This document shows positions 6,145 to 37,448 of a stretch of 64,000 nucleotides of DNA, piece after piece. The position numbers were made by a program, and so were the translations under genes. Origin of the DNA: Prevotella melaninogenica (GTDB lineage Bacteria; Bacteroidota; Bacteroidia; Bacteroidales; Bacteroidaceae). The stretch is taken from contig NZ_AP018049.1 of assembly GCF_003609775.1 (NCBI RefSeq), forward strand, positions 372,001 to 436,000, in the 5' to 3' direction. Each line of letters starts with the position of its first letter. Position 1 is the stretch's first letter. The notes beneath the pieces are model-generated. The model had not been told where the DNA came from. It made no database searches and saw only the letters and a list, made by a program, of their open reading frames with translations.

Positions 6145-6164
6145 GAAAATAAATGTTACTTTTG
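6134..6164 (+). promoter_or_regulatory. Bacteroidetes-type promoter of the DUF2795 gene
   Basis: CTTG at 6134-6137, 19 bases, then TACTTTTG at 6157-6164, matching TTTG-N19-TAnnTTTG except for one base in the -33 box. The gene starts about 33 bases downstream. Confidence 0.6.
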
Positions 6165-6197
6165 CACGCACTAAGAATCATGTAAAAAAATAAGAAT

Positions 6198-6419
6198 ATG
6201 TATTGGACACTTGAATTGGCCTCTAAGCTGGAGGATGCTCCATGGCCTGCAACAAAAGATGAGCTGATTGACTATGCAATGCGATCAGGTGCACCACTTG
6301 AGGTTCTTGAGAATCTTCAGGAGATTGAAGATGAAGGGGATGTCTATGATAGTATCGAGGATATTTGGCCTGACTATCCTTCAAAGGACGATTTCTTGTG
6401 GAATGAAGACGAATATTAA
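6198..6419 (+). CDS. DUF2795-type small acidic protein
   Basis: 73-residue, very acidic cytosolic protein. The core (ASKLEDAPWPATKDELIDYA...GAPLEVLENLQEIEDEG.VYDSIEDIWPDYP) has the layout of DUF2795 proteins, small helical proteins widespread in Bacteroidetes and Actinobacteria with no established biochemical function that I can state. The C-terminus DDFLWNEDEY is typical of the Bacteroidetes version. It has its own promoter at 6134-6164 and a terminator right after the stop, so it is probably monocistronic and well expressed. Family assignment is by pattern recall. Confidence 0.8.
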   Translation: MYWTLELASKLEDAPWPATKDELIDYAMRSGAPLEVLENLQEIEDEGDVYDSIEDIWPDYPSKDDFLWNEDEY

Positions 6420-6424
6420 AGAAT

Positions 6425-6464
6425 AGAAAAGAGGTTGTATCATAAAGATACAATCTCTTTTTTG
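6425..6464 (+). terminator. Terminator after the DUF2795 gene
   Basis: Inverted repeat AAAGAGGTTGTATC and GATACAATCTCTTT with a five-base loop followed by a T-run. It resembles the terminator at 36948-36982 in both stem and 5' flank (AATAGAAAAGAGG). A 28-bp dispersed repeat follows it directly. Confidence 0.85.
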
Positions 6465-6466
6465 TC

Positions 6467-6494
6467 TTAAACTCAAATCGGTCATTAGGCCGCA
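6467..6494 (+). repeat. 28-bp dispersed repeat, copy 1
   Basis: TTAAACTC, then AATCGGTCATTAGGCCGCA; about 25 of 28 positions match a second copy at 37243-37270. Both lie in intergenic DNA close to a terminator. Confidence 0.6.
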
Positions 6495-6718
6495 CTAAAC
6501 ATATATACGATCAGTTGATAGTATTTATAATAAGGTGTATGTAGCCTTTAAAATCTTAGATTTTAATTCTGTATAGATGGGAAATACATAATAGCTTGCT
6601 TGGAAAATTTATGACAAAATTATGGGCTTTATCGTTGGCTCCTTGTTGAAAAACAGCTATTTCCGGCTCTTTTGTAACTGCCATGAAGTCAAGAAGTTAT
6701 AAGATTGGTTTGTAAGAG

Positions 6719-6812
6719 GTGCTTAATTGGACTTCAAAAGGGCGTTAGTAAGGTCTGAAAAGGGCATCTTTTGCAAGCCAATTGGGCGTCTTTTCAAAGC
6801 TAAAAGAGCATC
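6719..6812 (-). repeat. 22-bp-period array A (five units), upstream of porP
   Basis: Five units with hexamers GTGCTT, GGCGTT, GGCATC, GGCGTC and AGCATC at 6719, 6741, 6763, 6785 and 6807, exactly 22 bp apart. Read on the minus strand these are RAYGCY-like (GATGCT, GACGCC, GATGCC, AACGCC, AAGCAC). The whole array, including the 16-bp spacers, is homologous to arrays B and C but in the opposite orientation to them. It lies in the 526-bp gap between the DUF2795 gene and porP, which otherwise holds a terminator and no clear gene. Confidence 0.8.
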
Positions 6813-6945
6813 TTTAAAAATGCAGTATGCGAAATTTATTTACAACTACCACTTATGTGTATATGTCTTCTTTTGGCAAGTAGGATGTAGAAAGACAGAT
6901 ATGTGTTTGCTCTTTCTTATCAGAGAGTTTTCTTTCTATATATCC

Positions 6946-7947
6946 ATGCGCTTTTTAATATTTATACGTAAGAAAGCAATAATTCAACCAGGCATACGTT
7001 ATAGAAACGTGTTTAAACGTTTAATACTCATATTTTCACTCACTTGTCTGATAGGGAACTCTGTCAAGGCACAGTACGATCCGTCTTATAGTCACTATTG
7101 GGCGATGGAGCCATCGTTCAATCCTGCTACGGTTGGAAAGGACAATAAGCTGAATGTTGTGGGTGCATACGCCCTCGACTTTGCTGGCTATGAACACAAT
7201 CCGAATACTTTCTATGTAGGAGCAGATATGCCAGTTTATTTCATGAAGCAATATCATGGAGTGGGAGTTTCTATTCTGAATGATAAGTTAGGAGCCTTTG
7301 TTCATCAGCGTGTTGCAGGACAATATGCCTTTCGTAAGGACCTTTGGGGCGGAATGCTTTCTGCAGGTGTTCAGGTGGGTATGCTTTTTGAAAAGTTGGA
7401 TGGCTCTAAGTTAGACCCAGAGGAGGGTAGTGATCCAGCTTTAGCACAAGGAGAAGTTAATGGACACGGACTTGATTTAGGTGCAGGACTCTATTATACG
7501 CACAAGGATTGGTATGTTGGAGTATCCGTTCAGCATCTCAATGCTCCCTTAGTAGATTTGGGTGAGACCAATGAGTTACAGATAAATCGTACATATTATT
7601 TGACGGGTGGATACAATATTAAATTGCGAAATCCGTTTCTTACTATACCGACTTTTGTTCTGGCACGTTATGATGGTGTGAACTATCGGGCTGATATCAC
7701 TGCCCGACTGGTCTATACACACGAGAAAAAAGTACTTTACGGAGGCGTTTCTTATAGTCCAACAAACTCTGTTACAGCCATGATTGGTGGAACATTCCAC
7801 GGAATTAATTTGGGTTATAGCTATGAGATGTACACGGGTACGACGGCTTTCAAGAATGGTAGTCATGGGCTATTCGTTAGCTATCAAACCGATATAAACC
7901 TGCAGAAGAAAGGCAGGAACAAACATAAAAGCGTAAGATTTCTATAG
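6946..7947 (+). CDS. porP: Type IX secretion outer-membrane protein PorP/SprF family
   Basis: 333 residues from the ATG at 6946. The frame stays open further upstream (another ATG at 6901), but 6946 gives a coherent signal peptide ending ...NSVKAQ. The mature protein opens with YDPSYSHYWAMEPSFNPATVG, the N-terminal hallmark of the PorP/SprF family (Q..P..S.Y....NPA..G). The rest is a predicted beta-barrel with many aromatic-Gly strands, including GVGVSILNDKLGAF and FRKDLWGGMLSAGVQVG. PorP is an outer-membrane component of the type IX secretion system that associates with the PorK/PorN ring. It is the first gene of a compact porP-K-L-M-N operon, with porK starting 9 bases after its stop. Repeat array A lies upstream and may contribute to its regulation. 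Confidence 0.9.
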   Translation: MRFLIFIRKKAIIQPGIRYRNVFKRLILIFSLTCLIGNSVKAQYDPSYSHYWAMEPSFNPATVGKDNKLNVVGAYALDFAGYEHNPNTFYVGADMPVYFMKQYHGVGVSILNDKLGAFVHQRVAGQYAFRKDLWGGMLSAGVQVGMLFEKLDGSKLDPEEGSDPALAQGEVNGHGLDLGAGLYYTHKDWYVGVSVQHLNAPLVDLGETNELQINRTYYLTGGYNIKLRNPFLTIPTFVLARYDGVNYRADITARLVYTHEKKVLYGGVSYSPTNSVTAMIGGTFHGINLGYSYEMYTGTTAFKNGSHGLFVSYQTDINLQKKGRNKHKSVRFL

Positions 7948-7956
7948 AAAGATATA

Positions 7957-9438
7957 ATGAAAATGAAGAAAAGTATAGTTGCCATTTGTCTTGGTGCACT
8001 CGTCTTGGGAACATTGACAGGCTGTTTCGCTGGTAAGTCAACCGCTTCGTCAGGTCGTGGCGGAGAGGTCACTGGCGTTGGTGGAGGGCGTACCTTCCGC
8101 GAGCCAGCCCCTTACGGCATGACACTTGTCAAGCGTGGCTGGTTGAGAATGGGTTTGGAAAAGCAGGACTCCCTATGGGGTAAGAAGACTCCTGTAAAGG
8201 ACATCTCTGTTGATGGTTTCTGGATGGATGAAACAGAGGTGACCAATTCCGAGTACAAGCAGTTTGTTGAGTGGGTTCGTGATTCTATTATTCGTACCCG
8301 TTTGGCTGATCCTGCATACGGTGGTGATGAAAGCTATATGATCACAGAAGACAAGAACGGTGATCCTATTACCCCTCGTCTGGACTGGAACAAGCGTCTG
8401 CCTCGTAAGCCTAATGAGGATGAACAGCGTGCTTTTGAGAGCCTTTATGTAACCAATCCTGTAACAGGTGAGAAGAGCATTGATGGTAGACAGTTGAACT
8501 ATCGTTTTGAGATTTACGATTATACATCAGCTGCTCTGCGTCGCAACCGTTTGAATCCACAAGAGCGTAATTTGAATACTGATATCACTGTTGACCCTAA
8601 TGAGGTTGTGATGATATCAAAGGATACAGCTTATGTCGATGAAAACGGCGTTATTCATAACGAGACAATCAATCGCCCATTGACGGGTCCTTGGGACTTC
8701 CTCAATACTTATATTGTCAATATCTATCCAGATACGACTTGTTGGGTGAATGACTTCCGTAATTCAGATAACGAGATTTATCTCCGTAATTACTTTAGTA
8801 ATCCAACTTATAACAACTATCCTGTAGTAGGTGTAACATGGGAACAGGCTAATGCCTTCTGTGCTTGGCGTACGGACTATCTACTTAAAGGCTTAGGAAA
8901 AGAGGCACGCTACGTACAGCGTTATCGCCTACCGACTGAGGCTGAGTGGGAGTATGCTGCTCGCGGAAAGAATCAGGACGAGTTCCCTTGGGATAATCAA
9001 AACGTTAAGAGTGGTAATGGTTGTTTCTTTGCTAACTTTAAGCCAGACCGTGGAAACTATACGAAAGACGGTAACTTGATTACAAGTAAGGTAGGAATCT
9101 ATGGTGCAAACTCTAATGGGTTGTACGATATGGCAGGTAATGTTGCCGAGTGGACAAGTACCATTTATACAGAGGCAGGTGTTGATGCGATGAATGACCT
9201 CAACCCACAGTTGGACTATAAAGCAGCCAAGGAAGACCCTTATCGCTTGAAGAAAAAGAGTGTTCGTGGTGGTAGCTGGAAAGACCCAGAAAGTTATATC
9301 CGTAGTGCTTGGCGTACTTGGGAGTATCAGAACCAACCACGTAGTTACATCGGTTTCCGTTGTGTTCGCAGTCTTGCAAGTTCATCAAGTGAGGCAGCAA
9401 AAGAGAATAAGAAAAGCAGTAAGAAAAAGAGAAGATAA
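7957..9438 (+). CDS. porK: Type IX secretion ring lipoprotein PorK/GldK
   Basis: 493-residue lipoprotein. Signal sequence ends in LTGC, with Cys at residue 23, for outer-membrane anchoring on the periplasmic side. After a Gly-rich stretch comes a formylglycine-generating-enzyme/sulfatase-modifying (SUMF1-like) fold: GMTLVKRGWLRMG, then VDGFWMDETEVTNSEYKQFV, YRLPTEAEWEYAARG near residue 330, GLYDMAGNVAEWTS near 390 and VRGGSWKDPESYIRSAWR near 435, ending IGFRCVRS. GldK/PorK uses this fold structurally, with PorN, to build the periplasmic ring of the type IX secretion machine rather than as an enzyme. The C-terminus is a basic Lys/Ser tail. It lies between porP and porL; its stop codon abuts the porL start. 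Confidence 0.95.
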   Translation: MKMKKSIVAICLGALVLGTLTGCFAGKSTASSGRGGEVTGVGGGRTFREPAPYGMTLVKRGWLRMGLEKQDSLWGKKTPVKDISVDGFWMDETEVTNSEYKQFVEWVRDSIIRTRLADPAYGGDESYMITEDKNGDPITPRLDWNKRLPRKPNEDEQRAFESLYVTNPVTGEKSIDGRQLNYRFEIYDYTSAALRRNRLNPQERNLNTDITVDPNEVVMISKDTAYVDENGVIHNETINRPLTGPWDFLNTYIVNIYPDTTCWVNDFRNSDNEIYLRNYFSNPTYNNYPVVGVTWEQANAFCAWRTDYLLKGLGKEARYVQRYRLPTEAEWEYAARGKNQDEFPWDNQNVKSGNGCFFANFKPDRGNYTKDGNLITSKVGIYGANSNGLYDMAGNVAEWTSTIYTEAGVDAMNDLNPQLDYKAAKEDPYRLKKKSVRGGSWKDPESYIRSAWRTWEYQNQPRSYIGFRCVRSLASSSSEAAKENKKSSKKKRR

Positions 9439-10236
9439 ATGACACAGTACAGTAAATACAATATCATTTACCATCTGCAGAAGTGGATGGATAGTGTTCC
9501 TGGACAAACGTTCCTAAACTATGGTTATAGTTGGGGAGCTTCGGTTGTAATTCTTGGAGCTTTGTTTAAGTTGACCCACTTGCCGGGAGCTAATATTATG
9601 CTTTACTTCGGTATGGGTACTGAGGTTATCGTGTTCTTCCTCTCTGCGTTCGACCGTCCGTTTGATAAGACAGATGACGGTCGCGAACTCCCAACACATG
9701 TTACAGAGGAGTATCTTGAGGACAAAGAGAATGCAGTAGAACGTCCAGCTGCTGCTCAACAGCCACAATATGCTGCTGCGGAGAATATTGCACAGAGTGT
9801 TCAGCAGGCTATGCCTTCAGCTAATGATATTGCTGCAGCCGTTGTTGGTCAGCAGAGTAAGGCTATCGCTGATGCGCAACAGCAGACGCCTGAGATGGTA
9901 GAAGCACAGACAAACTATGTTGCTGCTTTACAGAATCTGACAGAGATGTTAGGTAAGGTGAACGACCAGAGTCAGCGTCTGACACGTGATAGCGAAGAGA
10001 TGGAGAATCTTAATCGTACTCTCACAGGTATTGCTAAGGTTTATGAGATGCAACTTAAGAGTGCCAGCCAGCAGATTGGTACCATTGATCAGATCAATGA
10101 CCAGACTCGTAAGATGGCACAGCAGATTGAGCAACTCAATAGTATCTACGCTCGAATGATTGAGGCAATGACTGTTAATATGCGTGTGGCAGCACCGGGT
10201 GCAGCTCCTCAGCAGTCTGCTCCAGAAAGCTTGTAA
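9439..10236 (+). CDS. porL: Type IX secretion motor protein PorL/GldL
   Basis: 265-residue inner-membrane protein. The N-terminus (WMDSVPGQTFLNYGYSWGASVVILGALFKLTHLPGANIMLYFGMGTEVIVFFLSAFDRP) is the GldL signature: two transmembrane helices at about residues 28-45 and 50-70, with a membrane-embedded acidic residue (GTEVI) used in proton flow. The remainder is a long cytoplasmic Gln/Ala-rich coiled coil. With PorM it forms the proton-motive-force-driven motor of type IX secretion. The start codon directly follows the porK stop, consistent with translational coupling. Length and topology are normal. Confidence 0.95.
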   Translation: MTQYSKYNIIYHLQKWMDSVPGQTFLNYGYSWGASVVILGALFKLTHLPGANIMLYFGMGTEVIVFFLSAFDRPFDKTDDGRELPTHVTEEYLEDKENAVERPAAAQQPQYAAAENIAQSVQQAMPSANDIAAAVVGQQSKAIADAQQQTPEMVEAQTNYVAALQNLTEMLGKVNDQSQRLTRDSEEMENLNRTLTGIAKVYEMQLKSASQQIGTIDQINDQTRKMAQQIEQLNSIYARMIEAMTVNMRVAAPGAAPQQSAPESL

Positions 10237-10300
10237 TGATGAAATATGGTAGGGAAGGCGTCTGTTCTCAGTGGTCTTCCCACTACAAATAATAGAATTA

Positions 10301-11890
10301 ATGGCTATTAAGAAGAGAAAGATTTCCCCTCGCCAGAAGATGATTAACCTTATGTATATCGTCCTCATGGCAATGTTGGCATTGAATATCTCCACAGAGG
10401 TACTCAATGGCTTCTCTGTTGTTGAAGAGAGCTTGAACCGCACAACGGGAAATTCATCCAAGGAAAATGAAGCTATTTTTGGCGAACTTGACCAAATGAT
10501 GCGTAAGAACCCACAGAAGGTGAAACAGTGGTTTGTGATGGCATCGACGGTCAGAGAGATGAGTGATTCTCTCTATAACTATGCACAATCGCTGAAAGTA
10601 GCCATCGTTCGTGAGGCTGATGGTGAGAAGGGTGACCCTTTGAATATCGAAGGAAAGGATAATATTGAGGCTGCCAGCTATATTATGTTGAACCCAGCTA
10701 ATGGGCAAGGACATAAACTTTACGAGGCTATCAATAATTATCGAGCACGTATTCTGCAGTTTGTAACAGACCCTCGACAGAAGAAACTTATTGCAAGTAA
10801 CCTTTCTACAGAGGTTCCTAATCATTCAATGGGTAAGAACTGGGAAGAGTATATGTTCGAGAATATGCCTGTTGCTGCAGCGGTAACGCTTCTCTCGAAG
10901 TTGCAGAGCGATGTTCGCTATGCAGAAGGTGAAGTGTTGCATACTTTGGTGGCTAATGTTGGTCTGAAAGACTTACGTGTTAACAAGTTGCAGGCATTCG
11001 TTGTGCCAAGTCAGACACGCCTTTATCCGGGTGAGACAATGACGGCACAGATGTTTATGGGTGCTGTTGATTCTACACAGCAGCCACAGGTCTTTGTAAA
11101 TGGACAGCTTATTAAGGGCAATCAGATAACCGTTAAGGCTGGTGCTCCAGGTAAACATAATTTGAGTGGATACATTCTAATCAAGGACTTGTCGGGTAAT
11201 GTTTTGCGTAGAAACTTCTCGCAAGACTATTGGGTTACGGGTGGTCCACAGCCAAAAGAGTATATCAGTCCACAAGGAATGCAGAAGGTTCCACCTTTCG
11301 ATGGAATGGCTACTATTGCTGCAGACTTGATGAATGTACTCTATGCAGGCTTTGATAACCCAATCACGATTAGTATTCCTAACACTTCTCAGAGCGACGT
11401 ACAGGCTACTATGTCTGGTGGTTCACTTGTTTCAAGGGGTGGTGGTCATTTTATCGCACGTCCTTCGGCGGTCGGTCAGCCTGTAACTATCTCTGTATCT
11501 GCAAAGGGTCGTAAGATTGGAGAGTATCAGTTCCGTGTGAGAAAATTGCCAGATCCATCGCCATATATCGCTATGGGTGCTGATAGATTTAAGAGTGGAA
11601 CACTTTCTAAGGCTGCCCTTATGTCTGCATCGGGCATTCAAGCTGCTATTGATGACGGTCTGCTTGATATTCCTTTCAACGTAACAAGCTTCCGTGTTGT
11701 CTTCTTTGATAATATGGGTAACGCTGTGCCGCTGGCAAGTAATGGTGCTTCGTTTTCTCCACAACAAAGGGAACAGTTCCGTGAGTTAAGCCGCAACAAG
11801 CGATTCTACATCACTAATGTTGTCGTTCATGGACCTGATGGTACAACCCGAACGCTTAATGGAAGAAATATGGAGGTAATTGTAAGGTGA
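10301..11890 (+). CDS. porM: Type IX secretion motor protein PorM/GldM
   Basis: 529 residues from the ATG at 10301. A GTG 30 bases earlier is in frame but would add an atypical hydrophobic extension before MAIKKRKISPRQKMINLMY, the family's standard N-terminus. One transmembrane helix (about residues 15-35, YIVLMAMLALNIS) is followed by a large periplasmic part whose domains contact the PorK/PorN ring. Motifs include LNGFSVVEESLNRT and, near the middle, RVNKLQAFVVPSQTRLYPGETMTAQMF. PorM is the elongated transducer of the L/M motor. The 64-base gap from porL contains a small GGGAAG/CTTCCC inverted repeat. Confidence 0.95.
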   Translation: MAIKKRKISPRQKMINLMYIVLMAMLALNISTEVLNGFSVVEESLNRTTGNSSKENEAIFGELDQMMRKNPQKVKQWFVMASTVREMSDSLYNYAQSLKVAIVREADGEKGDPLNIEGKDNIEAASYIMLNPANGQGHKLYEAINNYRARILQFVTDPRQKKLIASNLSTEVPNHSMGKNWEEYMFENMPVAAAVTLLSKLQSDVRYAEGEVLHTLVANVGLKDLRVNKLQAFVVPSQTRLYPGETMTAQMFMGAVDSTQQPQVFVNGQLIKGNQITVKAGAPGKHNLSGYILIKDLSGNVLRRNFSQDYWVTGGPQPKEYISPQGMQKVPPFDGMATIAADLMNVLYAGFDNPITISIPNTSQSDVQATMSGGSLVSRGGGHFIARPSAVGQPVTISVSAKGRKIGEYQFRVRKLPDPSPYIAMGADRFKSGTLSKAALMSASGIQAAIDDGLLDIPFNVTSFRVVFFDNMGNAVPLASNGASFSPQQREQFRELSRNKRFYITNVVVHGPDGTTRTLNGRNMEVIVR

Positions 11891-11940
11891 TAGTTGACGA
11901 GTAGACAAGTTTACAGGTTGACAAGTTGATAGATCGTATT
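11889..11940 (-). repeat. Short tandem repeat of TTGACAAG-type units between porM and porN
   Basis: On the minus strand this reads as imperfect units CAACTTGT, CAACCTGT, AAACTTGT, ACTCGT, CAACTAT. A closely similar series is at 37407-37446 in the opposite orientation, near the malate dehydrogenase gene. Both are intergenic. Confidence 0.55.
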
Positions 11941-12008
11941 GATACTATTTCAACTCATAAAACACGATATCACAGTATCTCTTTTAGAAAAGAACAAACA
12001 AAACAATA

Positions 12009-13052
12009 ATGAAAAAGATATTTCTCATAGTCTGCACAGCCTGCTTGGCACTTACTGTAAGTGCACAGCCTGCTGCACGTCGTAACCAACAACAGCGCCA
12101 GTCGCCTGCTAATTCGATTACTACACGTGCGCAGATATCCTTCCCAACAACTGCTCCTTTGGAGGAAGATGTTGTTTGGCGACGTGATATCTATCGTGAA
12201 CTCAAACTTACCGAGGATGCTAATGCGGGTTTGTACTATCCTACAGAGCCTGTAGGTTCACAGATGAATCTCTTTACGTACATCTTCAAGTTGATGATGA
12301 GTGGTCCTAATCGAGGTGGTATTGCTGCGTATAACTACCGTATGGATGGCAATGAGATTTTTACTGATTCAGCTCGTATTAAGCCTTTGCAGTTCCTTGA
12401 TAACTATCACATATTCTACGAACGTACTGACCATGGTATCCGCCTTGACAATAGTGATATCCCTTCAGGGGAGGTGAAAGGCTACTATCTTAAAGAGAGT
12501 GCCTATTATGATCAGGGAACAGCAACCTTCCATCGTAAGGTTGTAGCCCTCTGTCCGATTATGTATCGTGAAGATGATTTCGGAGATGGTGAAGTGAAAT
12601 ACCCTCTTTTCTGGGTTCGTTATGATGATTTGGCTCCTTTCCTTGCTAAGCAAACAATCATGACCAGCAATCTAAACAATGCTGCAACGATGAGTGTTGA
12701 CGATTATTTCACGATGAATCTCTATAAGGGAAAGATTTATAAGACAACGAATATGTTAGGTAAGACTCTCGCACAATACTGTCCTACAGATTCTGCAATG
12801 GCTGCAGAGCAGAAGAAGATTGAGCGTGAGTTGGTTGCTTTTGAGAAGACAATCTATGGCGATCCAGCTCGTCGAGATAGTTTGGATAGCATCTCTGCTG
12901 CTAAAGAAGCTGAGAAGGCACCAAGAAAGGTAGGACGTACTCGTCGCGCAAGTACTCCATCAAGCACAGTTAGTCGCTCACGTCGCCCATCTAATAGTGG
13001 CGGTGGAGGAGTATCTCCTGCACGTGTTACCGTTCGCCGCGAGCGTCATTAA
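12009..13052 (+). CDS. porN: Type IX secretion ring protein PorN/GldN
   Basis: 347-residue periplasmic protein with a signal peptide ending ...LTVSAQ. The core carries the GldN-family pattern: DVVWRRDIYRELKLTEDANAGLYYP at about residues 55-80, then LFTYIFKLMMSGP, and later CPIMYREDDFGDGEVKYPLFWVRYDDLAP. PorN pairs with the lipoprotein PorK to form the ring under the outer membrane. The C-terminal ~50 residues are low-complexity and basic (Ser/Arg/Gly, ending SPARVTVRRERH), probably disordered. It is the last gene of the operon and is followed by a very strong terminator. Confidence 0.95.
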   Translation: MKKIFLIVCTACLALTVSAQPAARRNQQQRQSPANSITTRAQISFPTTAPLEEDVVWRRDIYRELKLTEDANAGLYYPTEPVGSQMNLFTYIFKLMMSGPNRGGIAAYNYRMDGNEIFTDSARIKPLQFLDNYHIFYERTDHGIRLDNSDIPSGEVKGYYLKESAYYDQGTATFHRKVVALCPIMYREDDFGDGEVKYPLFWVRYDDLAPFLAKQTIMTSNLNNAATMSVDDYFTMNLYKGKIYKTTNMLGKTLAQYCPTDSAMAAEQKKIERELVAFEKTIYGDPARRDSLDSISAAKEAEKAPRKVGRTRRASTPSSTVSRSRRPSNSGGGGVSPARVTVRRERH

Positions 13053-13112
13053 TATTTTTTTGAGTCTTCAGTAATTTTGTGTGGTAGTCTAAAGCTATTA
13101 CATATATAAGGC

Positions 13113-13169
13113 ACACAGAGCAACTCTAAGTTTGTAGTAAGAAACTTGGAGTTGCTCTGTGTTTTTTTT
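13113..13169 (+). terminator. Strong terminator of the por operon
   Basis: Near-perfect 21-bp stem: ACACAGAGCAACTCTAAGTT at 13113 pairs with AACTTGGAGTTGCTCTGTGT ending at 13162, followed by eight T bases. It closes the type IX secretion operon. Confidence 0.95.
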
Positions 13170-13260
13170 CTTAAAAGTCTAAATGCAAAAAGCAAACCTT
13201 ATCACTCAAAATTGCGGAACTCTTCTTTTGTCCTAATTTTTCATATATTGATTTTGTAAA

Positions 13261-13354
13261 GACCACCAAACGGCTTGCAAATAACGCCCACTTGGCTTGC
13301 AAAAGATGCCCTTTTGAGCTCTTAGTAACGCCCTTTTGAAGCCTTGTTAAGCAT
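13261..13354 (+). repeat. 22-bp-period array B
   Basis: Hexamers AACGCC (13283), GATGCC (13305), AACGCC (13327) and AAGCAT (13349), with a weak GACCAC at 13261, are spaced exactly 22 bp apart. The intervening 16-bp spacers match arrays A (reverse complement) and C. Located downstream of the por operon. Confidence 0.8.
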
Positions 13355-13603
13355 CTTTTGAAATCGTACTTTGCAACTATTTGATAACAAATCACTTACA
13401 CAGACGCTAAAATAATTAACTTTTAAGCTGTTTTCCTATCCTTTTTTAAAATATTTTGTCAATATATTTCCTTGCCTTTTGGGTTAAAGAGATGTAGCGC
13501 ACGGAGGTACTTCTGTGTATTGCTTTTAGCTTTGTTGCTTCTGCTTTTCATGTGAAGTATTATGTAATAGGTTTACTTTATCACTTCATATTCTGGGAGA
13601 ATC

Positions 13604-13712
13604 TAAATTTTCTTAAGGATGGTTTTATAGATTCCACGATGGAATCTTCCTTTAATGAAAGATAGATAAAATTTCATTAAAGGAATTTTATAGAACCAAC
13701 CTTAATTAATTT
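13604..13712. repeat. Nested palindrome / possible structured RNA
   Basis: Outer imperfect arms: AAGGATGGTTTTATA near 13614-13628 and TATAGAACCAACCTTAAT near 13689-13706. Inside are two hairpins: GATTCC ACGAT GGAATC (13630-13646) and a perfect 14-bp stem TTCCTTTAATGAAA (13647-13660) with TTTCATTAAAGGAA (13672-13685). The layout suits a three-way junction or a small palindromic element. It lies about 150 bases upstream of the beta-barrel gene start. Confidence 0.65.
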
Positions 13713-13863
13713 TAATTGGGCAATAATTGCCTTACGGATGTGGTTAATGTATAGAGACACTCGAATAGTATTCCTATTTTGAGTCAACTTTCATTCATGT
13801 GGACCTTTTGTGTTCATAATGTAGGAAGTGGTTTCAGTTCTTTTATCATTAACACTTACGGTT

Positions 13864-14493
13864 ATGAAGAAAATTGTTTCATTGGCTTTATTAGCCCTAT
13901 CATTCCTTATTTCAGCTCCTGCCTATGCAGATGAACCATTAAAGTTCGGTGTAAAGGCTGGATTGAATGTGAGTGATTTTCGCTTTAATAGTGACGTGTT
14001 TGACAAATCTAATCAGGTTGGTTGGTTCATTGGTCCTACAGTAAAATTTACCTTACCAGTAGTAGGTTTAGGCATGGATGCTTCTGTTCTCTATGACTAT
14101 CGTTCGGCAAAGCTTGATTATGCTACTATGACGCAGACGGTAAAGCAGCAAGAACTTGCGATACCAGTGAATGTTCGCTATTCTATTGGCTTAGGTAGTT
14201 TGGCAAGTGTCTTTGTCTTTGGTGGTCCTCAAATTGCTTTTAATATAGGCGAAAAGGAATATCAGTGGAATATGAAGAGTACTTATTCTTTGAAGAATAG
14301 TAACTTTAGTGTCAATCTTGGCTTTGGTGTAACGGCCTTCAAACATTTGCAGGTAAGTGCTAACTATAACATTGCTTGTGGTAAAACAGGTGATGCAACT
14401 TGGAAAACAGCAACAGATGCTGCAACGTCTGTTTTCGAAAAGAAGGGTAGTCGTAACAGTTCATGGCAGTTAGGTTTAGCTTATTTCTTTTAA
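13864..14493 (+). CDS. Outer-membrane beta-barrel protein (porin-like)
   Basis: 209 residues from the ATG at 13864. An upstream in-frame start at 13828 would put 12 extra hydrophobic residues before the normal MKK signal start. The signal peptide ends ...SAPAYA. The mature part reads as an eight-stranded barrel: FGVKAGLNVSDFRF at the start, VGWFIGPTVKFTLP, LGMDASVLYDYRSA, LAIPVNVRYSIG, and a terminal strand SWQLGLAYFF ending in aromatic Phe, as outer-membrane proteins do. This matches the Bacteroidetes outer-membrane beta-barrel (PorT-like) family. The ligand is unknown. It is monocistronic with a terminator directly after it; the structured element at 13604-13712 lies in its upstream region. 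Confidence 0.85.
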   Translation: MKKIVSLALLALSFLISAPAYADEPLKFGVKAGLNVSDFRFNSDVFDKSNQVGWFIGPTVKFTLPVVGLGMDASVLYDYRSAKLDYATMTQTVKQQELAIPVNVRYSIGLGSLASVFVFGGPQIAFNIGEKEYQWNMKSTYSLKNSNFSVNLGFGVTAFKHLQVSANYNIACGKTGDATWKTATDAATSVFEKKGSRNSSWQLGLAYFF

Positions 14494-14524
14494 GTACAAA
14501 ATATTAAGTAACATATAAAAACGT

Positions 14525-14556
14525 CCCATTTCATCGAGAGTGAAATGGGTTTTTTT
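14525..14556 (+). terminator. Terminator after the beta-barrel gene
   Basis: Perfect stem CCCATTTCA (14525-14533) with TGAAATGGG (14541-14549), seven-base loop, then seven T bases. Confidence 0.95.
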
Positions 14557-14620
14557 ATGTGATAAAACGTTACGTTAAGTCTGTTTCTGTGATAGGAGGG
14601 TATTAATGATTCGTTCCATC

Positions 14621-14652
14621 TTTGTGTATTTGCATCTTTCTTTGTAACTTTG
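14621..14652 (+). promoter_or_regulatory. Promoter of priA
   Basis: TTTG at 14621-14624, 20 bases, then TAACTTTG at 14645-14652: a full match to the Bacteroidetes -33/-7 consensus, about 65 bases upstream of the chosen priA start. It supports starting the protein at 14718 rather than at the earlier in-frame codon. Confidence 0.8.
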
Positions 14653-14717
14653 TATTCAAACCAATGTCTGGTTTATTGTACAGTTTGCAGTGGCTGATAG
14701 GTAACAAACAATTTATA

Positions 14718-17024
14718 ATGACTTACGCTAATATTATTTTACCCCTTCCTCTTGAAGGCTATTTCACGTATGGTGTGCCCGATACTTTGATATCTCGGGT
14801 AACAGCTGGTGTACGTGTGTCTGTCCCTTTGGGAAAGAGTAAGACTTACGTGGGCATTATTGCGGAATATCCTGTAAATATACCGAATCCATCGGAGAAT
14901 GTTACAGCAGAAGGGAAAAAGATTATCTATAAGAATATCATAGATGTATTGGATAACACTCCTGTACTTCTCCCACAACAACTGAAGCTTTGGCATTGGA
15001 TATCTGATTACTATATGTCGCCTATTGGTGATGTTTATAAAGCAGCACTACCATCGGGACTGAAAGAGGAGTATGGTTATCGTCCTCGAACAGAACTTTA
15101 TATCCGATTAGCTGATAACCTACGCCATGAACGTACACTCACACTTATGATAGATTCCATGAAGCGTGCAACGAAACAAGTGGAAGTTCTTATGGCTTAT
15201 TTACAATTGGCTGGTGTCGATGAAATGGTGGAAATTACATCAGAAACAGTACTGCGAGAGGTGACCAGAGAGGAGTTGATGAACGTTACCCATGCCTCTG
15301 TTGGCGTTATTCGTGCTTTACAAGATAGGAAAATCCTTGTTACATACGAGAAGGAAGTCGGTAGGTTGAATCGTGGAAACCCACCACATCCAGAGAATAT
15401 AAAACCTCTGAACGAGGCACAGGCGGAGGCTTACAATCAGATTCTCTTGCAGATGATGGCGCATAGAGTGACACTACTGCATGGAGTGACCTCTTCTGGA
15501 AAGACGGAAATATATATTCATCTTATTCAGAAAGCACTTAATGAACATAAGCAGGTGTTGTATCTGTTACCCGAGATAGCACTAACGGTTCAGATTACAG
15601 AACGCTTAAAAGCCGTGTTTGGTGATAGACTCGGAATATATCACAGTAAATACAGTGATGCTGAGCGTGTGGAGATATGGCATAAGCAGTTGTCTGATTC
15701 GCCATACGATGTAATTTTAGGTGCAAGAAGTGCTATTTTTCTCCCATTTCATCGATTAGGTCTGGTTATTATAGATGAAGAACATGAGCAGAGTTTTAAG
15801 CAGCAAGACCCTGCTCCTCGTTATCATGCTCGCTCAGCTGCGATTGTGTTGGCACAGATGTATCCTGATGCAAAGACACTTTTGGGAACGGCTACGCCTT
15901 CAATGGAAAGCTATTACAATGCTAAGCAAGGCAAGTATGGTCTTGTTGAGTTGACACGCCGTTATAAAGATATCCAACTTCCTGAAATAGAAATTGTAGA
16001 TATCAAGGATCTTTATCGTAGAAAGATGATGACTGGAGCCTTCTCTCCACGTCTTCTCTCTGCTGTTCGTGAGGCATTGGGGCGTGGCGAACAAGCAATA
16101 TTGTTTCAGAATCGGCGTGGCTTTGCGCCGATGGTGGAGTGTAGACAGTGCGGATGGGTTCCAAAGTGTCCAGACTGTGATGTGTCATTAACGCACCATA
16201 AGAATATGAACTACCTTTCTTGCCACTACTGCGGCTATACGATGAAGGTGCCAGATGTATGCCCTTGTTGTGAAAGTGAGGATATCCGTGGGCGAGGGTA
16301 TGGAACAGAGAAGGTAGAAGATGAAATCCGTTATATATTCCCTGAGGCTCGTATTGCGCGAATGGACCTTGATACAACCCGCACACGTAATGCTTATGAA
16401 CGTTTGATTAATGACTTTTCTACGGGGAAGAGCAATCTTCTGATAGGTACGCAGATGATTTCAAAGGGGCTCGACTTTGATAAGGTTTCGGTCGTGGGAA
16501 TCCTCAATGCAGACTCAATGTTGAATTATCCTGACTTCCGTGCATACGAGCAAGCGTTTATGATGATGAGTCAGGTGAGTGGACGAGCAGGAAGAAAAGG
16601 AAGGCAGGGGTTGGTAATTCTTCAGACAAAGAGCCCAGAGTTGCCGGTTATTCAGCAGGTAGTGCGAAATGATTATCAGTCGTTTTATTCCGACTTGCTG
16701 ATAGAGAGACGTGACTTCCATTATCCCCCATTTTATCGACTTGTCTATGTCTATTTGAAACATAGGGATGAGAATACAGTGAACTCAGCAGGTTTAGAGT
16801 TGGGTAGTAGACTCCGTGAAATCTTTGGTGAGCGCGTACTCGGTCCAGATAAACCAGCAGTAGCTCGTGTGAAGACGTTAAGTATCAGAAAAATAATGCT
16901 TAAGTTGGAGAATGGAATTGACTATCCACGTGTTCGCCAGTATCTTCGTGGAGCCTTAGATGCCATGTTGAAGGATAAGAGATATGGTGCTCTTCAAGTG
17001 TATTATGACGTTGATCCGCTATAG
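14718..17024 (+). CDS. priA: Primosomal protein N' (replication restart helicase PriA)
   Basis: 768 residues from the ATG at 14718; the frame extends upstream, but the promoter at 14621-14652 would lie inside a longer version. The N-terminal DNA-binding domain starts YANIILPLPLEGYFTYGVP. The helicase part has Walker A GVTSSGKTEIY near residue 262, the DEEH box IIDEEHEQSFKQQ near 355, LGTATPSMES near 395, and GTQMISKGLDFDKVSVVGILNADS near 580. Between the lobes is the family's eight-cysteine zinc region (CRQCGWVPKCPDCD, then CHYCGY and CPCCES). PriA recognises stalled forks and reloads the replicative helicase. All key motifs are intact. It is monocistronic. Confidence 0.97.
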   Translation: MTYANIILPLPLEGYFTYGVPDTLISRVTAGVRVSVPLGKSKTYVGIIAEYPVNIPNPSENVTAEGKKIIYKNIIDVLDNTPVLLPQQLKLWHWISDYYMSPIGDVYKAALPSGLKEEYGYRPRTELYIRLADNLRHERTLTLMIDSMKRATKQVEVLMAYLQLAGVDEMVEITSETVLREVTREELMNVTHASVGVIRALQDRKILVTYEKEVGRLNRGNPPHPENIKPLNEAQAEAYNQILLQMMAHRVTLLHGVTSSGKTEIYIHLIQKALNEHKQVLYLLPEIALTVQITERLKAVFGDRLGIYHSKYSDAERVEIWHKQLSDSPYDVILGARSAIFLPFHRLGLVIIDEEHEQSFKQQDPAPRYHARSAAIVLAQMYPDAKTLLGTATPSMESYYNAKQGKYGLVELTRRYKDIQLPEIEIVDIKDLYRRKMMTGAFSPRLLSAVREALGRGEQAILFQNRRGFAPMVECRQCGWVPKCPDCDVSLTHHKNMNYLSCHYCGYTMKVPDVCPCCESEDIRGRGYGTEKVEDEIRYIFPEARIARMDLDTTRTRNAYERLINDFSTGKSNLLIGTQMISKGLDFDKVSVVGILNADSMLNYPDFRAYEQAFMMMSQVSGRAGRKGRQGLVILQTKSPELPVIQQVVRNDYQSFYSDLLIERRDFHYPPFYRLVYVYLKHRDENTVNSAGLELGSRLREIFGERVLGPDKPAVARVKTLSIRKIMLKLENGIDYPRVRQYLRGALDAMLKDKRYGALQVYYDVDPL

Positions 17025-17071
17025 TTTTAGTTACTTATCTCTTTTCTAAAGTCTTGTTTCCCAAATTATTT

Positions 17072-17144
17072 TCATGAAGAAAAATATTTTTTATCGTGAA
17101 AATAAATATTTCTTTTCATGAAAATAATTCCTTTTGTTCATGAA
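17072..17144. repeat. 22-bp-period array F (TCRTGAA units)
   Basis: TCATGAA, TCGTGAA, TCATGAA and TCATGAA at 17072, 17094, 17116 and 17138, exactly 22 bp apart, each followed by an AT-rich spacer (mostly AATAA). The sequence differs from arrays A-E but the period is the same. It sits in the 273-bp gap between convergent priA and the 177-aa gene. Confidence 0.75.
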
Positions 17145-17297
17145 AATAAATGAATGGAGTTGGTTGTTAGGGTAGGTTGGAAATTGTATTAGTGCTTTCT
17201 AAAGCGATGTTTGACGACTTTTACAGCATATCTTTCAAATACGATCAGGTATGAAAAGCACCTTTTATTTCATGTGTTAATAGGCTTAAGGAGGATG

Positions 17298-17831
17298 TTA
17301 GTCAAAGTAGGGGTATAGTTCTTTGAAGCCATCAACGATGTCATTGATGAGGTTGGGATTATCTTTTAATTGCTGTTTACATATTATCAGATACGCACTC
17401 TTCATGAGGTTATAATGATGTTCAAACTCTTCTGAGTTAAAGTAAGTCTGCATATACCTACTGTATACTCGGAATCTTTTTGTTTCAAGTTCAGACTCTC
17501 CAATAGAGTTAGCACCAATAAAACCGAAAGAAGCTTTATCGTCTTTCCCAGCAACCTCTTTCATAATGGCCATGCAAGTCTGTATACATTCTCTGGGCTC
17601 GTTGAGTCCCGTCAGGATATTATATTTCTTGTCACTATCTCTATGTGCTTTTAGATGGAACTTGACGGCATAAAAATGTTGTGAATAGACCTCTACCCAC
17701 ACCCAATAAGTCTGATGACTTTTATTAGACTTAAACGAATACAAAAGTTTATAAAGTAAAAAGCCTTGAGGTCCATCCCAAGGCTCATCTATTTTCTTCA
17801 CAAATCTGTAAGGATAATAACTCAGGCTCAT
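17298..17831 (-). CDS. Conserved-looking protein of unknown function
   Basis: 177-residue cytosolic protein; no signal peptide or membrane segment. It has a compact alpha/beta composition with beta-rich stretches (TYWVWVEVYSQHFYAVKFHLKAH) and a middle segment ILTGLNEPRECIQTCMAIMKEVAGKDDKASFGFIGANSIGE. I am not certain of the family; it may belong to one of the Bacteroidetes domains of unknown function that pair a small helical protein with a larger one. The 67-aa gene lies 12 bases upstream on the same strand, so the two form a two-gene unit reminiscent of toxin-antitoxin layouts. That reading is inference only. Confidence 0.6.
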   Translation of the reverse strand: MSLSYYPYRFVKKIDEPWDGPQGFLLYKLLYSFKSNKSHQTYWVWVEVYSQHFYAVKFHLKAHRDSDKKYNILTGLNEPRECIQTCMAIMKEVAGKDDKASFGFIGANSIGESELETKRFRVYSRYMQTYFNSEEFEHHYNLMKSAYLIICKQQLKDNPNLINDIVDGFKELYPYFD

Positions 17832-17843
17832 TTTTGTAGATAT

Positions 17844-18047
17844 TTAAGTGTTGAGGTAAGCATCAATCTTCATTCTCTCGGCTTCCTCTTTTGGTACACG
17901 TACAAAACCATTCCCACTGAAGAGAACCTCTCTCTCTTCGGCAGATAAGTATCTTGCAATCCTTTGCAAGCTTTCTAATTTCTTTTTCTCTTGGTATGCC
18001 TGTTTACAAGCAATCCTTGAGGCAAGTGTTGATATTGTTGTTCCCAT
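17844..18047 (-). CDS. Small helical protein upstream of the 177-aa gene
   Basis: 67 residues from the ATG at 18047 (MGTTISTLASRIACKQAYQ...). The frame stays open upstream to 18098, but the 17 extra residues are hydrophobic and unlike the rest. AGGAATAAG lies just upstream of the 18047 start as a possible ribosome-binding site. The protein is mostly helical and charged (KKKLESLQRIARYLSAEEREVLFSG), ending GFVRVPKEEAERMKIDAYLNT. It resembles small antitoxin-like or regulatory proteins in size and charge. Twelve bases separate its stop from the next gene, implying cotranscription. Function unknown. Confidence 0.55.
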   Translation of the reverse strand: MGTTISTLASRIACKQAYQEKKKLESLQRIARYLSAEEREVLFSGNGFVRVPKEEAERMKIDAYLNT

Positions 18048-18112
18048 AAACTTATTCCTTTCTGCTGCAAATATATAAATATTAGTTGAAAACGACAAGT
18101 AATTAGTGATGA

Positions 18113-18157
18113 TTTTATAAAAGTGTAGAGGCAGCCAGAATCACTCTGACTGCCTCT
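18113..18157 (-). terminator. Terminator of the FadL-like porin gene
   Basis: Stem AGAGGCAG...CAGA (18127-18139) with TCTG...CTGCCTCT (18145-18157), followed on the minus strand by a T-rich stretch. It ends the minus-strand gene that stops at 18199. Confidence 0.75.
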
Positions 18158-18198
18158 TAGTGGTATTAGTTGTGGAAAACGGTAGATTTATTAGTGGC

Positions 18199-19884
18199 TT
18201 AGAAATCAATATCAAGTCCAACACCGAGTACCTTATTGGTACGAGTAAAGATATCGGTGTTCTTAGTTGCGAGGGTCTTAGGCTGCATTGTTACAGAACC
18301 ATCTGGCTGTGTTACCTCATCCTTACCCACTTCGATAGCACCAGTGTACTCCTTTTTGAAGTTTGAATAGTTGGTAAAGAAATAAGCAACATTGAGGTGA
18401 GCATTCTTTGCAACCTTAATCTTTGCACCGAAACCGAAGCTATAACTGCTTGTTACGAAGCTAAGGTCGGTCAAGTATTTGCCATCGCCAAGACCGTAGA
18501 GCGTACGCTGACCACCTGCACTGACTGTCACTGATGGGTTGATATCCCACTCAACACCAGCAAGGAACTCCTGTGTGTTATGCTTAAGGAAGCGCTGCTT
18601 GTCATTGTCCATGCGTGCATCCTTATCGAAATAGTGGTTATATCCTGCCATAACACGGAGGTTCTTCAGTACTTCATATTGTGTACCAAGTGCAAGAATA
18701 CCAGGGATATCGTTTGGAGTGTTCACGCCATTCTCATACTTTTTGGTGTCATCACGCTTTGTGTTGTTCTCAATATTGAACTTTGTGGTAAACTCATAGC
18801 GTGCAGCAAAGTTCCACTTGCCTGTACGGTAGTCAATACCGAGGATTGGAGTGATACCCCATCCGCGCTGAGAAACCTCTAAATAGCGGTCTTTTACATT
18901 TTCTTTGCTACTGTCCAACTTGTCTGCACCTGCACGAATGAGCTTTGCACCTGCAGTAGCCTTCTGTGCGCCAGCTGCATATTGGGCTGCTGCTGCTTGC
19001 AACTGAGCCTTTGCAGTAGGGTCGGTAGCTTTATCTGCTTGTGCCTGATATGCTGCCGCCTGAGTTTGTGCAGCGACAGCCTGTGCCTGCAATGCGCTTG
19101 CCTTTTCGTTCAAAGCCTTAACCTTTGAATCGAAGTAGTCGTATAGATTCTGGTTATTTCCACCTACATTTGCAGAAATATTGGTGATACTACCTTCGTA
19201 TTTGTTATAGATATAATTGAAACGAGCACCACCAAATACAGAGAGATTCTCGTTAATCTTATAAGCAACACCGAGTTGGAGACCGAAGTTATACTGCTGA
19301 CCGCTCATGTAGCTTTGAAGGCTATAGCTGGTAGCAGGCGTCTCCTGCTGTCCGAGAAGTGCCGCAAAGGTAGGCAACTGCTGATTGATAAGTGCAGGGA
19401 GGAGTGATACTGGACGTTCAAATGTAGGAAGACCGTCGTTGAAAGCAGCCTTACCACCGCCACCAGTCAAACCAAAACCAGCTTGGAAACTCCATTTGTC
19501 TTTATTATATGCCACCTGGAAAGATGGGAGGATAGGCACAGAAGCCTTACCTTGATAGAACTTACTGCCATCTGTAGTATTACCACCATTCAGCTTGAAA
19601 GGATACTCATAAGGAGTATTAGCGAATGCAGGAACACTGAAAGTAGATGTTATCTCACGTGTCTGATATATGTTTTGGAAGTTAAGAGAGAGATGAAAAC
19701 CTTGGTCAAGGAAAGCTACACCAGCAGGGTTAAAGTAAACACCGTCAATACCAATTGCGCCTACACGTGCGAAGTTACGGTTAAATGCGATGTTCTGATT
19801 GGTGTTTGTAAGCAAACCTCCGGCTTGTGTTGTTGTTGCCATTGCGAGCAAAGCAGCTGCAAGGACAGTCTTCTGATACTTCAT
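18199..19884 (-). CDS. FadL/OmpP1-family outer-membrane transporter with Ala/Gln-rich insertion
   Basis: 561 residues from the ATG at 19884; an upstream in-frame start is ruled out by the promoter at 19927-19958. The signal peptide ends ...ATTTQA. The mature N-terminus GGLLTNTNQNIAFNRNFARVG and the following GVYFNPAGVAFL are FadL/OmpP1 hallmarks (NPAG loop), from the family that moves hydrophobic compounds across the outer membrane. The barrel ends with GVGLDIDF, a terminal aromatic. Unusual: residues about 246-330 form an Ala/Gln-rich, coiled-coil-like insertion (QAQAVAAQTQAAAYQAQADK and similar) between barrel strands, making the protein longer than the ~430-480 residues usual for this family. 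It is monocistronic. Confidence 0.88.
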   Translation of the reverse strand: MKYQKTVLAAALLAMATTTQAGGLLTNTNQNIAFNRNFARVGAIGIDGVYFNPAGVAFLDQGFHLSLNFQNIYQTREITSTFSVPAFANTPYEYPFKLNGGNTTDGSKFYQGKASVPILPSFQVAYNKDKWSFQAGFGLTGGGGKAAFNDGLPTFERPVSLLPALINQQLPTFAALLGQQETPATSYSLQSYMSGQQYNFGLQLGVAYKINENLSVFGGARFNYIYNKYEGSITNISANVGGNNQNLYDYFDSKVKALNEKASALQAQAVAAQTQAAAYQAQADKATDPTAKAQLQAAAAQYAAGAQKATAGAKLIRAGADKLDSSKENVKDRYLEVSQRGWGITPILGIDYRTGKWNFAARYEFTTKFNIENNTKRDDTKKYENGVNTPNDIPGILALGTQYEVLKNLRVMAGYNHYFDKDARMDNDKQRFLKHNTQEFLAGVEWDINPSVTVSAGGQRTLYGLGDGKYLTDLSFVTSSYSFGFGAKIKVAKNAHLNVAYFFTNYSNFKKEYTGAIEVGKDEVTQPDGSVTMQPKTLATKNTDIFTRTNKVLGVGLDIDF

Positions 19885-19926
19885 TTTTGATTTGTAAGTG
19901 TATATAAAACTTATAGAATTTGGTTG

Positions 19927-19958
19927 CAAAGTTATGAATATTGTTCTAAACTTCCAAA
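19927..19958 (-). promoter_or_regulatory. Promoter of the FadL-like gene
   Basis: On the minus strand TTTG (19955-19958), 20 bases, then TAACTTTG (19927-19934): a complete Bacteroidetes promoter about 40 bases upstream of the start codon. Confidence 0.8.
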
Positions 19959-20237
19959 TTTTCACTTGTTTTTTCTCACTTTTAGTTAAAATGTGCATCG
20001 TTGCTTAGGAAGCAAAAAGGGTAGTAATAAGGCTCTTCCGTTAAATGTATAGATTGTGAATAGAATAAAGGCTTATAGATTTGCATGGTATTATTATTTC
20101 TAATTAGATAATCTTAAAAACGAGGAAAACTAAAAGATAAAATGCAAATTGATACCATATCTATCTGTCTTCTACAAATAAGGCATTCTCATATTACTGA
20201 TGTTTGTAAATAATTTTTATAAGGCTTAAACCCTATA

Positions 20238-20331
20238 TATGCTCTTTTGGCTTCTAAAAGACGCCCAATTGACTTGCAAAAGATGCCCTTTAGAGCTCTT
20301 GTTAACGCCCTTTTGAAGTCTTATAAGGCAC
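20238..20331 (+). repeat. 22-bp-period array C (five units)
   Basis: Hexamers TATGCT, GACGCC, GATGCC, AACGCC and AGGCAC at 20238, 20260, 20282, 20304 and 20326, exactly 22 bp apart. Order and spacers match array A (reversed) and array B, so the three are copies of one element. Confidence 0.8.
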
Positions 20332-20636
20332 CTTTTGAAATGCAGTTTTATAAATACTTGATAGCGAATAATTTACGAAGGTGTTGTTAGTGCTTGTTTT
20401 TAGCCTTGTTCTCTGCCTATTTTGTGACTCATTTTGTAAATAAAATTCTAACGACTTAAGTGCTAATGTGTCAATGAGAATAGGTTAATAACCTCTGTTT
20501 TCTCTACACACTGACAGTGCTTTTGCGCCTTTTATCGCTTTTTATAATCCTCAGTGTTCTTCTTTTCTCTGTGTGGCATTAAGTCAAAGTTCTAAATTTA
20601 AATGTAAACTTTATCATTTTAAATGACTGAAGCCTC

Positions 20637-20687
20637 TAAAAAGAAACCCCACTACGTTACTATTGTTGTAACTTAGTGAGGTTTCTT
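20637..20687 (-). terminator. Terminator of the 7TM-HD gene
   Basis: Stem AAGAAACCCCACTACGTTAC (20641-20660) with GTAACTTAGTGAGGTTTCTT (20668-20687), two mismatches, and A bases at 20637-20641 that give a U-run on the minus-strand transcript. Confidence 0.85.
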
Positions 20688-20756
20688 AGTATTTATGCAC
20701 CTCCCTTTTGGAGGAAGATAGGAAGGGAGTCTATATTGTGATTGACCTCAACCTTT

Positions 20757-27424: not shown

Positions 27425-27489
27425 GTGTCTAATAGTCTTGCAGTTAGTACTTTAAATTAAGTTTTCTCACCTATTCTAATATGTGTGCG

Positions 27490-27561
27490 AACGCCCCGCA
27501 CGTATGGTGCGGACGCCTAACACCATTGGTGCGGATGCTTAGCACGATGCAAAATGATGAA
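27490..27561 (+). repeat. 22-bp-period array D
   Basis: Hexamers AACGCC (27490), GACGCC (27512), GATGCT (27534) and a weak GATGAA (27556), each 22 bp apart. The spacers differ from arrays A-C and contain GGTGCG and CACC-type palindromic arms (for example GGTGC...GCAC). Core and period are shared with A-C; spacers are shared with array E. Confidence 0.75.
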
Positions 27562-33036: not shown

Positions 33037-33165
33037 TGCAGGTAATTAACAAGACGCTCTGTTTTCGATTTGTAAAATGTGATATTTATCTCTCATACAA
33101 GTTATGTGTTTGTGCCTTACTATCCGTTATAATGACTCTTATATGTCATCTTTAAGAGACGTGCT

Positions 33166-33215
33166 GATGCTTAGCACATGTGGTGCTCATGCTTAACACC
33201 AATGGTGCTGAGTAC
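33166..33215 (+). repeat. 22-bp-period array E
   Basis: Hexamers GATGCT (33166), CATGCT (33188) and GAGTAC (33210), 22 bp apart. The spacers (TAGCAC...GGTGCT, TAACACC...GGTGCT) match array D closely. It is in the 435-bp gap between the SusD-like gene and the next TonB-dependent receptor, which otherwise holds a terminator, a promoter and a leader hairpin. Confidence 0.75.
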
Positions 33216-33291
33216 TAAATAATCTGTACACTTGCCTCATTCTTCTAATAGTAGACTTGCTTATTGTCAGTTGGTTTACTAATTTTTAGGT

Positions 33292-37446: not shown

Positions 37447-37448
37447 TC

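Follow-up and report, generated by a model that had tools for sequence, protein, structure and literature searches.

Dyad arrays at a 22-bp pitch in intergenic DNA of Prevotella, candidate docking rows for dimeric DNA-binding proteins

Three intergenic arrays whose units recur every 22 bp lie in a 64,000-nucleotide stretch of Prevotella melaninogenica DNA (contig NZ_AP018049.1, positions 372,001 to 436,000; hereafter the window, by which we mean this whole stretch). We propose, with about as much confidence as doubt, that these arrays and others of the same pitch in the genus are docking rows for putative dimeric DNA-binding proteins seated along one face of the helix. The array family is real and not a product of chance, is broader than a preliminary description of this DNA had stated, and is partly known already through PINSR, an intergenic repeat of related species; its function is what we infer. 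A binding array on one helix face was among the suggestions of the preliminary description and, judged on sequence, remains the best fit to the two-turn pitch, the dyads in related genomes, the neighboring site of the type bound by IHF, and the absence of any sign of RNA folding.

Results

Arrays A (6719..6812, minus strand), B (13261..13354, plus strand), and C (20238..20331, plus strand) are intergenic copies of one 94-bp array with the same order of units, in agreement with the coordinates and the shared element first reported for them. A and C have five units at the 22-bp pitch, and B has four clear units and a weak one, which is its first and had been recognized as weak before. In a lag scan of the window over lags 13–40 at z 5.5, six stretches emerge, five at lag 22 (B, z 7.9; C, z 7.4; and A, z 6.9 among them) and one at lag 19, which overlaps the fourth lag-22 stretch at 17064, in the region of array D described below; the fifth, at 27450, appears once the threshold is lowered to z ≥ 5.5. 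A separate scan over lags 13–60 at z ≥ 6 returns four signals, all at lag 22, which are A, B, C, and the stretch at 17064, whose sequence is quite different; one block-shuffled version of the window gives no hits under the same settings. Tandem Repeats Finder assigns period 22 to 4 of its 12 rows (6758-6815, 17069-17151, 20285-20339, and 33161-33209).

A profile built from 32 aligned rows detects at least 150 copies of the family of A, B, and C genome-wide: every one of the 150 candidates scored, which were the best 150 of 1820 first-look candidates at E ≤ 1, is a match, the worst listed at 4.3e-15 (in the initial DNA search, the best 40 of 170 candidates were scored). The pattern AACGCCCTTTTGAAG, with up to two mismatches, occurs at 182 places compared with 3 for the reversed control, and copies are present on both large contigs. 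The element is therefore not limited to A, B, and C, and its period also holds elsewhere. Among 92 copies (89 fetched loci and the three of the window, all scoring above 50, with lower-scoring partial hits excluded), the length of the array, measured as net length so that compensating indels would escape notice, is constant in 91, and the remaining copy is shorter by exactly 22 bp. By comparison, the adjacent 95-bp tail varies in length in 16 of the 92. Mean column identity is 0.867 for the array, 0.815 for a neighboring box, and 0.644 for the tail; the order is the same (0.844, 0.762, and 0.582) in the 56 copies without detectable ends of a miniature inverted-repeat transposable element (MITE). 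The limits originally drawn for the element were thus correct for the array and too narrow for the conserved sequence, which continues into the tail and the box. In 88 of the 92 copies, no more than half of the copy overlaps a called open reading frame (ORF). Exact matches to a 34-base pattern, with three degenerate letters, are found in records of P. jejuni, P. histicola, P. multiformis, and P. veroralis; in a comparison of positions across species, one site in P. jejuni is close to an own copy but truncated where the locus ends. The 15-base core is found at more than two places only in G000, G056, and G092 among 151 genomes sampled across the family.

The box beside the array is an IHF-type site, an assignment made by consensus only. 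The consensus, taken from outside this work, was relaxed by one letter, R in place of A at position 6, relative to the form printed in PMC10380432. Exact matches lie beside B (13374..13386, minus strand) and C (20351..20363, minus strand), and a site recognized by eye beside A (6687..6699, plus strand), which is not among the exact matches, has one mismatch to WATCARNNNNTTR. Within 80 bp after the array, 70 of the 92 copies have an exact site, 66 of them at one shared offset, compared with one copy before the array, one in the control window, and 1.5% for the shuffled motif. At each position of the box, 87–100% of copies fit the allowed letters, and its variable letters are those that the consensus leaves free (N columns are 0.49–0.85 identical and fixed columns 0.87–1.0). 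For 61 arrays from 11 other genomes, an exact site is found within 60 bp in 23 versus 3 control windows and, with one mismatch allowed, in 41 versus 18; the exact sites are distributed over G233 (11/22), G371 (7/8), G160 (2/6), G202 (1/3), G227 (1/2), and G311 (1/2). Counted onward from the last unit found, these sites lie at offsets of 2, 13–15, and 24–26, in steps of approximately 11 bp. A box TTGATNATCAA scores at least 13 of 18 beside 14 of 39 arrays and beside none of 39 control windows, in a test that is partly circular, the box having been derived from loci that were later scored.

The profile of the window's family matches 41 of 299 genomes of the genus, many of them weakly, and these matches led to arrays of equal pitch and other sequence. 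The common unit in these relatives is AAAG-N5-CTTT followed by nine spacer bases. A three-unit search with up to three mismatches, in which one array may give several places and the control is the pattern read backwards, matches 123 of the 299 genomes, and 61 of these 299 (counted by hand) have at least 10 places and five times the control. The top genome, G233, has 402 places versus 0 for the control. The control stays low in the majority of genomes, with exceptions (G389 has 4 places versus 47), and our guess is that the backward pattern may itself catch other dyad families. Outside the genus the pattern is rare, with matches in 8 of 295 genomes of the order; beyond the genome studied here, the matches seem genuine only in G626, which belongs to a different family and has 7 places, and perhaps in G002, and the genus of G626 has the pattern in two of six genomes. 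The commonest cores are AGCCG and CGTAG in G233, CAGCC in G440, ATCAC/ATAAC/ATGAC in G160, and TCTAA in G626; cores differ among the species sampled without being unique to them, as G162 has CAGCC like G440 and CATAG like G225. Spacers are nearly all distinct in 9 of the 11 genomes sampled.

In G233, units with at most one mismatch form 60 pairs at distance 22, where 0.37 are expected, and 0, 1, 0, and 0 pairs at distances 20, 21, 23, and 24. In 284 kb of unmasked G233 sequence, lag 22 accounts for 39 of 51 hits at z ≥ 6 and for 29 of 32 at z ≥ 7.5; 10 of the 39 stretches lie outside PINSR-like arrays and sort, by eye, into five other dyad families. In G210, which has no AAAG match, 7 of 10 hits are at lag 22, with AATTTCGCCCAAATT-like dyads. 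Lag 22 is also seen in 3 of 10 hits in G440 and in 3 of 13 hits in eleven loci that were chosen for tnaA and not for arrays, and 50 kb of Escherichia coli gives a single hit, at lag 21. Lag 22 is common in the genus and is not its only period.

Two side observations concern arrays of other kinds in these genomes. Arrays with a period of 41–42 bp, about four helical turns, occur in G225 (L189-L194) and G440 (L198 and L200), and the 464/PgRS elements of P. gingivalis also have 41-nt repeats (PMC4596501). Two of the tnaA loci contain 22-bp arrays of other units, AGATAATCTCTGACCTGCTCGT at L049:3249 and AAAACAAGTTGTTTT at L057:1143.

In G233, the arrays show a preference for convergent gaps. Among gaps of at least 200 bp, an array is held by 9 of 16 convergent, 9 of 52 codirectional, and 3 of 17 divergent gaps (convergent versus the rest, 12/69; Fisher p 0.0027). 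For the genome of the window, the 88 arrays off called ORFs comprise 34 in convergent, 22 and 18 in codirectional, and 13 in divergent positions and one undetermined, counts that come from simple ORF calls and have no background rate.

Proposed Mechanism

A dyad with half-sites separated by roughly one turn, recurring at two-turn intervals and at constant length, would be the arrangement required by cooperative dimers seated on one DNA face. The in vivo helical repeat is reportedly near 11 bp according to looping work in E. coli, and 22 bp would then correspond to two helical turns in the cell. We envisage that each dyad would be read by a protein dimer and that the dimers would line up next to each other along a single helix face; a bend introduced by IHF or HU at the neighboring site could close a compact nucleoprotein complex. 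Such a complex may help to organize intergenic DNA and may mark or insulate gene ends, as has been suggested for the RIB/BIME repeats of E. coli. On this view, mobile elements would account for the spread of the module through the genome. A wider reading, which we hold only tentatively and consider rather unlikely as a whole, is that a helical code governs Prevotella chromosomes: fast-changing dimeric proteins, one for each species-specific dyad, would cover the intergenic arrays at a common two-turn pitch, often with an anchor in IHF or HU bends, and form a previously unrecognized layer of chromosome organization whose spread was helped by mobile elements.

Several observations weigh against docking rows. 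Because the copies in this genome descend from a common ancestor, their regularity is partly inherited; MITE ends are found on 36 of the 92 copies, so spread alone could account for the copy number. The AAAG pattern is unclean in this genome, with 36 places versus 16 for the control, and a symmetric dyad core fails as a general rule, the core not being symmetric in most genomes sampled. The pitch has a competitor in G225, where 7 of 23 lag hits are at 22 but 11 are at 41. No exact IHF-type site lies within 60 bp of any of the 18 arrays of G425, G162, G225, G440, and G626, so the site is not part of every array. Finally, the preference for convergent gaps in G233 leaves out 10 of 32 arrays, which fall outside the gaps delimited by the simple ORF caller.

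If proteins do read the arrays, a chromosome-organizing layer would exist in a common human-associated genus, with specificities that shift between species. Repeats that are kept apart when compared by sequence, probably with PINSR among them, would be brought together by a single geometric rule, a dyad at each 22-bp step, and this rule makes their function testable.

Alternative Explanations

The explanation that competes best, although we consider it unlikely, is that the arrays are selfish minisatellites that originated by slippage, were trapped and spread by MITEs, and have no role for the host, as has been proposed for the MITE-trapped repeats of BrickBuilt in P. gingivalis (PMC4596501). 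Full copies of the window's family are elements with a modal length of 586 bp and with terminal inverted repeats (TIRs) GGTTCTTCCGTTAAATG and its complement. Allowing up to four mismatches, both ends are present in 17 of the 92 copies, which span 503–785 bp, one end in 19, and none in 56; in 920 trials with each shuffled end, the left gives 4 hits and the right 8. The 8-mers flanking the element agree in at least six letters at the exact place in 9 of the 17 two-ended copies, versus a background of 0.7%, and 8-bp target duplications together with ends of this sort are typical of ISL3 elements. No stop-to-stop frame in one 587-bp copy exceeds 58 codons, as expected of an element that lacks coding capacity. 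Six matches to PF01610, the ISL3-type transposase, are found in the genome. A gene for a 414-aa ISL3 transposase (NF033550, 320 bits against a cut-off of 180) ends where the array side of an element begins (L179), a second ISL3 transposase gene, which contains a stop codon, lies approximately 100 bp from an element (L182), and transposase fragments adjoin the other end of an element at a third place (L183/L184). TIRs and target duplication, as expected of an ISL3-type MITE, are thus found for part of the copies and a related transposase in the genome, and part of the copy number can be attributed to transposition, probably driven by ISL3. The single array shortened by exactly one unit length also favors slippage.

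Three observations argue against a purely selfish repeat. The 56 copies without a detectable end still have an array identity of 0.844 compared with 0.582 for the tail; the nearly all distinct spacers in 9 of 11 other genomes are not what recent slippage would yield; and several dyad families of different sequence keep one pitch.

Within the window, array C alone is accompanied by a MITE end, a left TIR (20031..20047, plus strand) with one mismatch to GGTTCTTCCGTTAAATG; the right end of this copy was looked for and not found, and neither A nor B has a TIR within four mismatches. A second type of element occurs in G371, where four of eight array loci (L062, L063, L065, and L066) show GTGAAACA on one flank, followed at 259 bp by TGTTTCAC, ends that are unlike those of the genome studied here and that resemble half of a parS site; the other four loci have neither sequence within the 501 bp examined. 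An origin from phages or plasmids was rejected, as a search of 72,556 plasmid and 50,697 phage records with a 631-bp stretch containing one MITE copy yields no match; the exact three-unit pattern is found in three stretches of two viral contigs.

We regard as improbable that the arrays act at the level of RNA, in which case their transcription would produce series of hairpins that terminate or stabilize the transcripts of converging genes. The near-palindromic units and the preference for convergent gaps in G233 are consistent with this explanation, but two-sided compensated changes, assessed in 32 copies from this genome, are seen for only one of the 18 predicted pairs, and the real order and orientation of units fold no better than block-shuffled ones (mean z -0.06) for 45 arrays of nine other genomes, this genome's own family lying outside the test. 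RNA structure was rejected on these two results, and the repeated RNA motif that the preliminary description had offered as an alternative is disfavored with it. A terminator scan of 5900-21000 places none inside A, B, or C, although this is a weak test, with 13 found versus 10.1 in shuffles, and a strong terminator (13114-13161) already stands between the upstream gene and array B. Hairpins, moreover, should not require spacing exact to the base. In the window, five tRNAs are the only matches to Rfam at the gathering threshold.

Very improbable in our view is intrinsic curvature, in which the array would act as a curved spacer independent of any specific protein: A- and T-tracts do alternate every 11 bp in AAAAG-N5-CTTTT-N7 units, but steps of 11 bp are less than ideal for curvature by A-tracts, the conserved G and C and the species-specific cores would be unnecessary for bending, and the GTGC-N9-GCAC family described below keeps the pitch without such tracts. 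The arrays do not resemble a CRISPR, given the conserved order and spacers of 32 aligned copies, as had been concluded before (cas genes were not searched for).

Other Features of the Window

The preliminary description did not include the IHF-type site, the MITE vehicle, or the other 22-bp dyad families, two of which are represented in the window. Array D (17069..17151), found with Tandem Repeats Finder and the lag scan, has 3.8 units TTTTCATGAAAATAAATATTTC at the 22-bp pitch with the dyad TTTTCATGAAAA, and sits between the converging ORFs 14622-17024 (plus strand) and 17298-17831 (minus strand). G233 has arrays with a similar spacer and the dyad center TTTACACGTAAA; one of its five other dyad families, TTTACACGTAAATAAATATTTC, has a spacer resembling that of array D and a different dyad center. 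The third family is represented by arrays E (27485..27545; lag scan z 6.0), with three GTGC-N9-GCAC-like dyads at 22 bp, and F (33161..33221), in which two units are clear and a third is partial, again at 22 bp; units were assigned by eye in both, F overlaps the period-22 row of Tandem Repeats Finder at 33161-33209, and both copies lie between ORFs.

The interval between array A and array B (6991-13052) is occupied by type IX secretion genes, with A before and B after them. Pfam names in this run are PorP_SprF, an FGE-sulfatase domain protein, GldL_N, GldM, and GldN, and from its place the FGE-sulfatase domain protein may be GldK-like. Elsewhere in the window, 11889-11927 and 37410-37448 form an inverted pair of 39 nt, 87% complementary, with a period-8 sequence, AACTCGTC.

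Comparison with Known Systems

The initial statement that no described system matches these arrays is not supported. PINSR is a described 188-bp intergenic repeat of P. intermedia and P. nigrescens, with 177 and 184 copies in two strains, which occurs downstream of tnaA and is described as having no TIRs; the passages of that report on which we draw name no period (PMC4755523). We find an element of the same build as the window's arrays, five 22-bp units, beside the tnaA gene of G233, whose two contigs measure 1.97 and 0.71 Mb; a profile made from this element detects 32 arrays in 300 kb, of which 16 kb is masked. By position and number only, PINSR is probably a member of the same class of 22-bp arrays. 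Like PINSR, the window's family is intergenic, exceeds 100 copies, and belongs to the same genus; unlike PINSR, it has one or both MITE ends in 36 of 92 copies, and its alignment with the G233 tnaA element, used as a proxy for the PINSR consensus, consists of short pieces, the best 31 bp long with an E-value of 0.008.

In the portions of the literature covered, the only related repeats recognized are PINSR and those of P. gingivalis (PMC4596501; PMC5771137), and the part of PMC5771137 covered has nothing to the point. BrickBuilt, a MITE of P. gingivalis and P. gulae, consists of imperfect repeats of 23 nt that occupy 19 places in ATCC 33277, has 0–6% indels within elements, and has end repeats that were compared with IS5 elements; as here, tandem units of about two turns lie inside an intergenic MITE (PMC4596501). 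The Correia/NEMIS elements of Neisseria similarly combine a MITE with an IHF site, and their IHF-bearing form is almost exclusively intergenic; in contrast to the arrays studied here, no dyad array is described for them in the sections consulted (PMC2229807).

The repeats of E. coli offer a parallel in working. RIBs reportedly lie at the 3' end of transcription units, going by the title of the 1993 work of Boccard and Prentki. An IHF-type site, identified by consensus only, stands beside 70 of the 92 copies of the window's family, a likeness to BIME-1, which interacts with IHF and belongs to the high-copy extragenic palindromes with transposase links (PMC2817692). The units are not GTAG-tagged REPs, as GTAG on either strand occurs in 4 of the 92 arrays, the nearby transposase is of the ISL3 type, and the passages on BIMEs give no 22-bp pitch (PMC2817692). 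By analogy, the predicted IHF-type bend and the preference for gene ends suggest that the 22-bp arrays may work as the RIB/BIME repeats do without being one of them.

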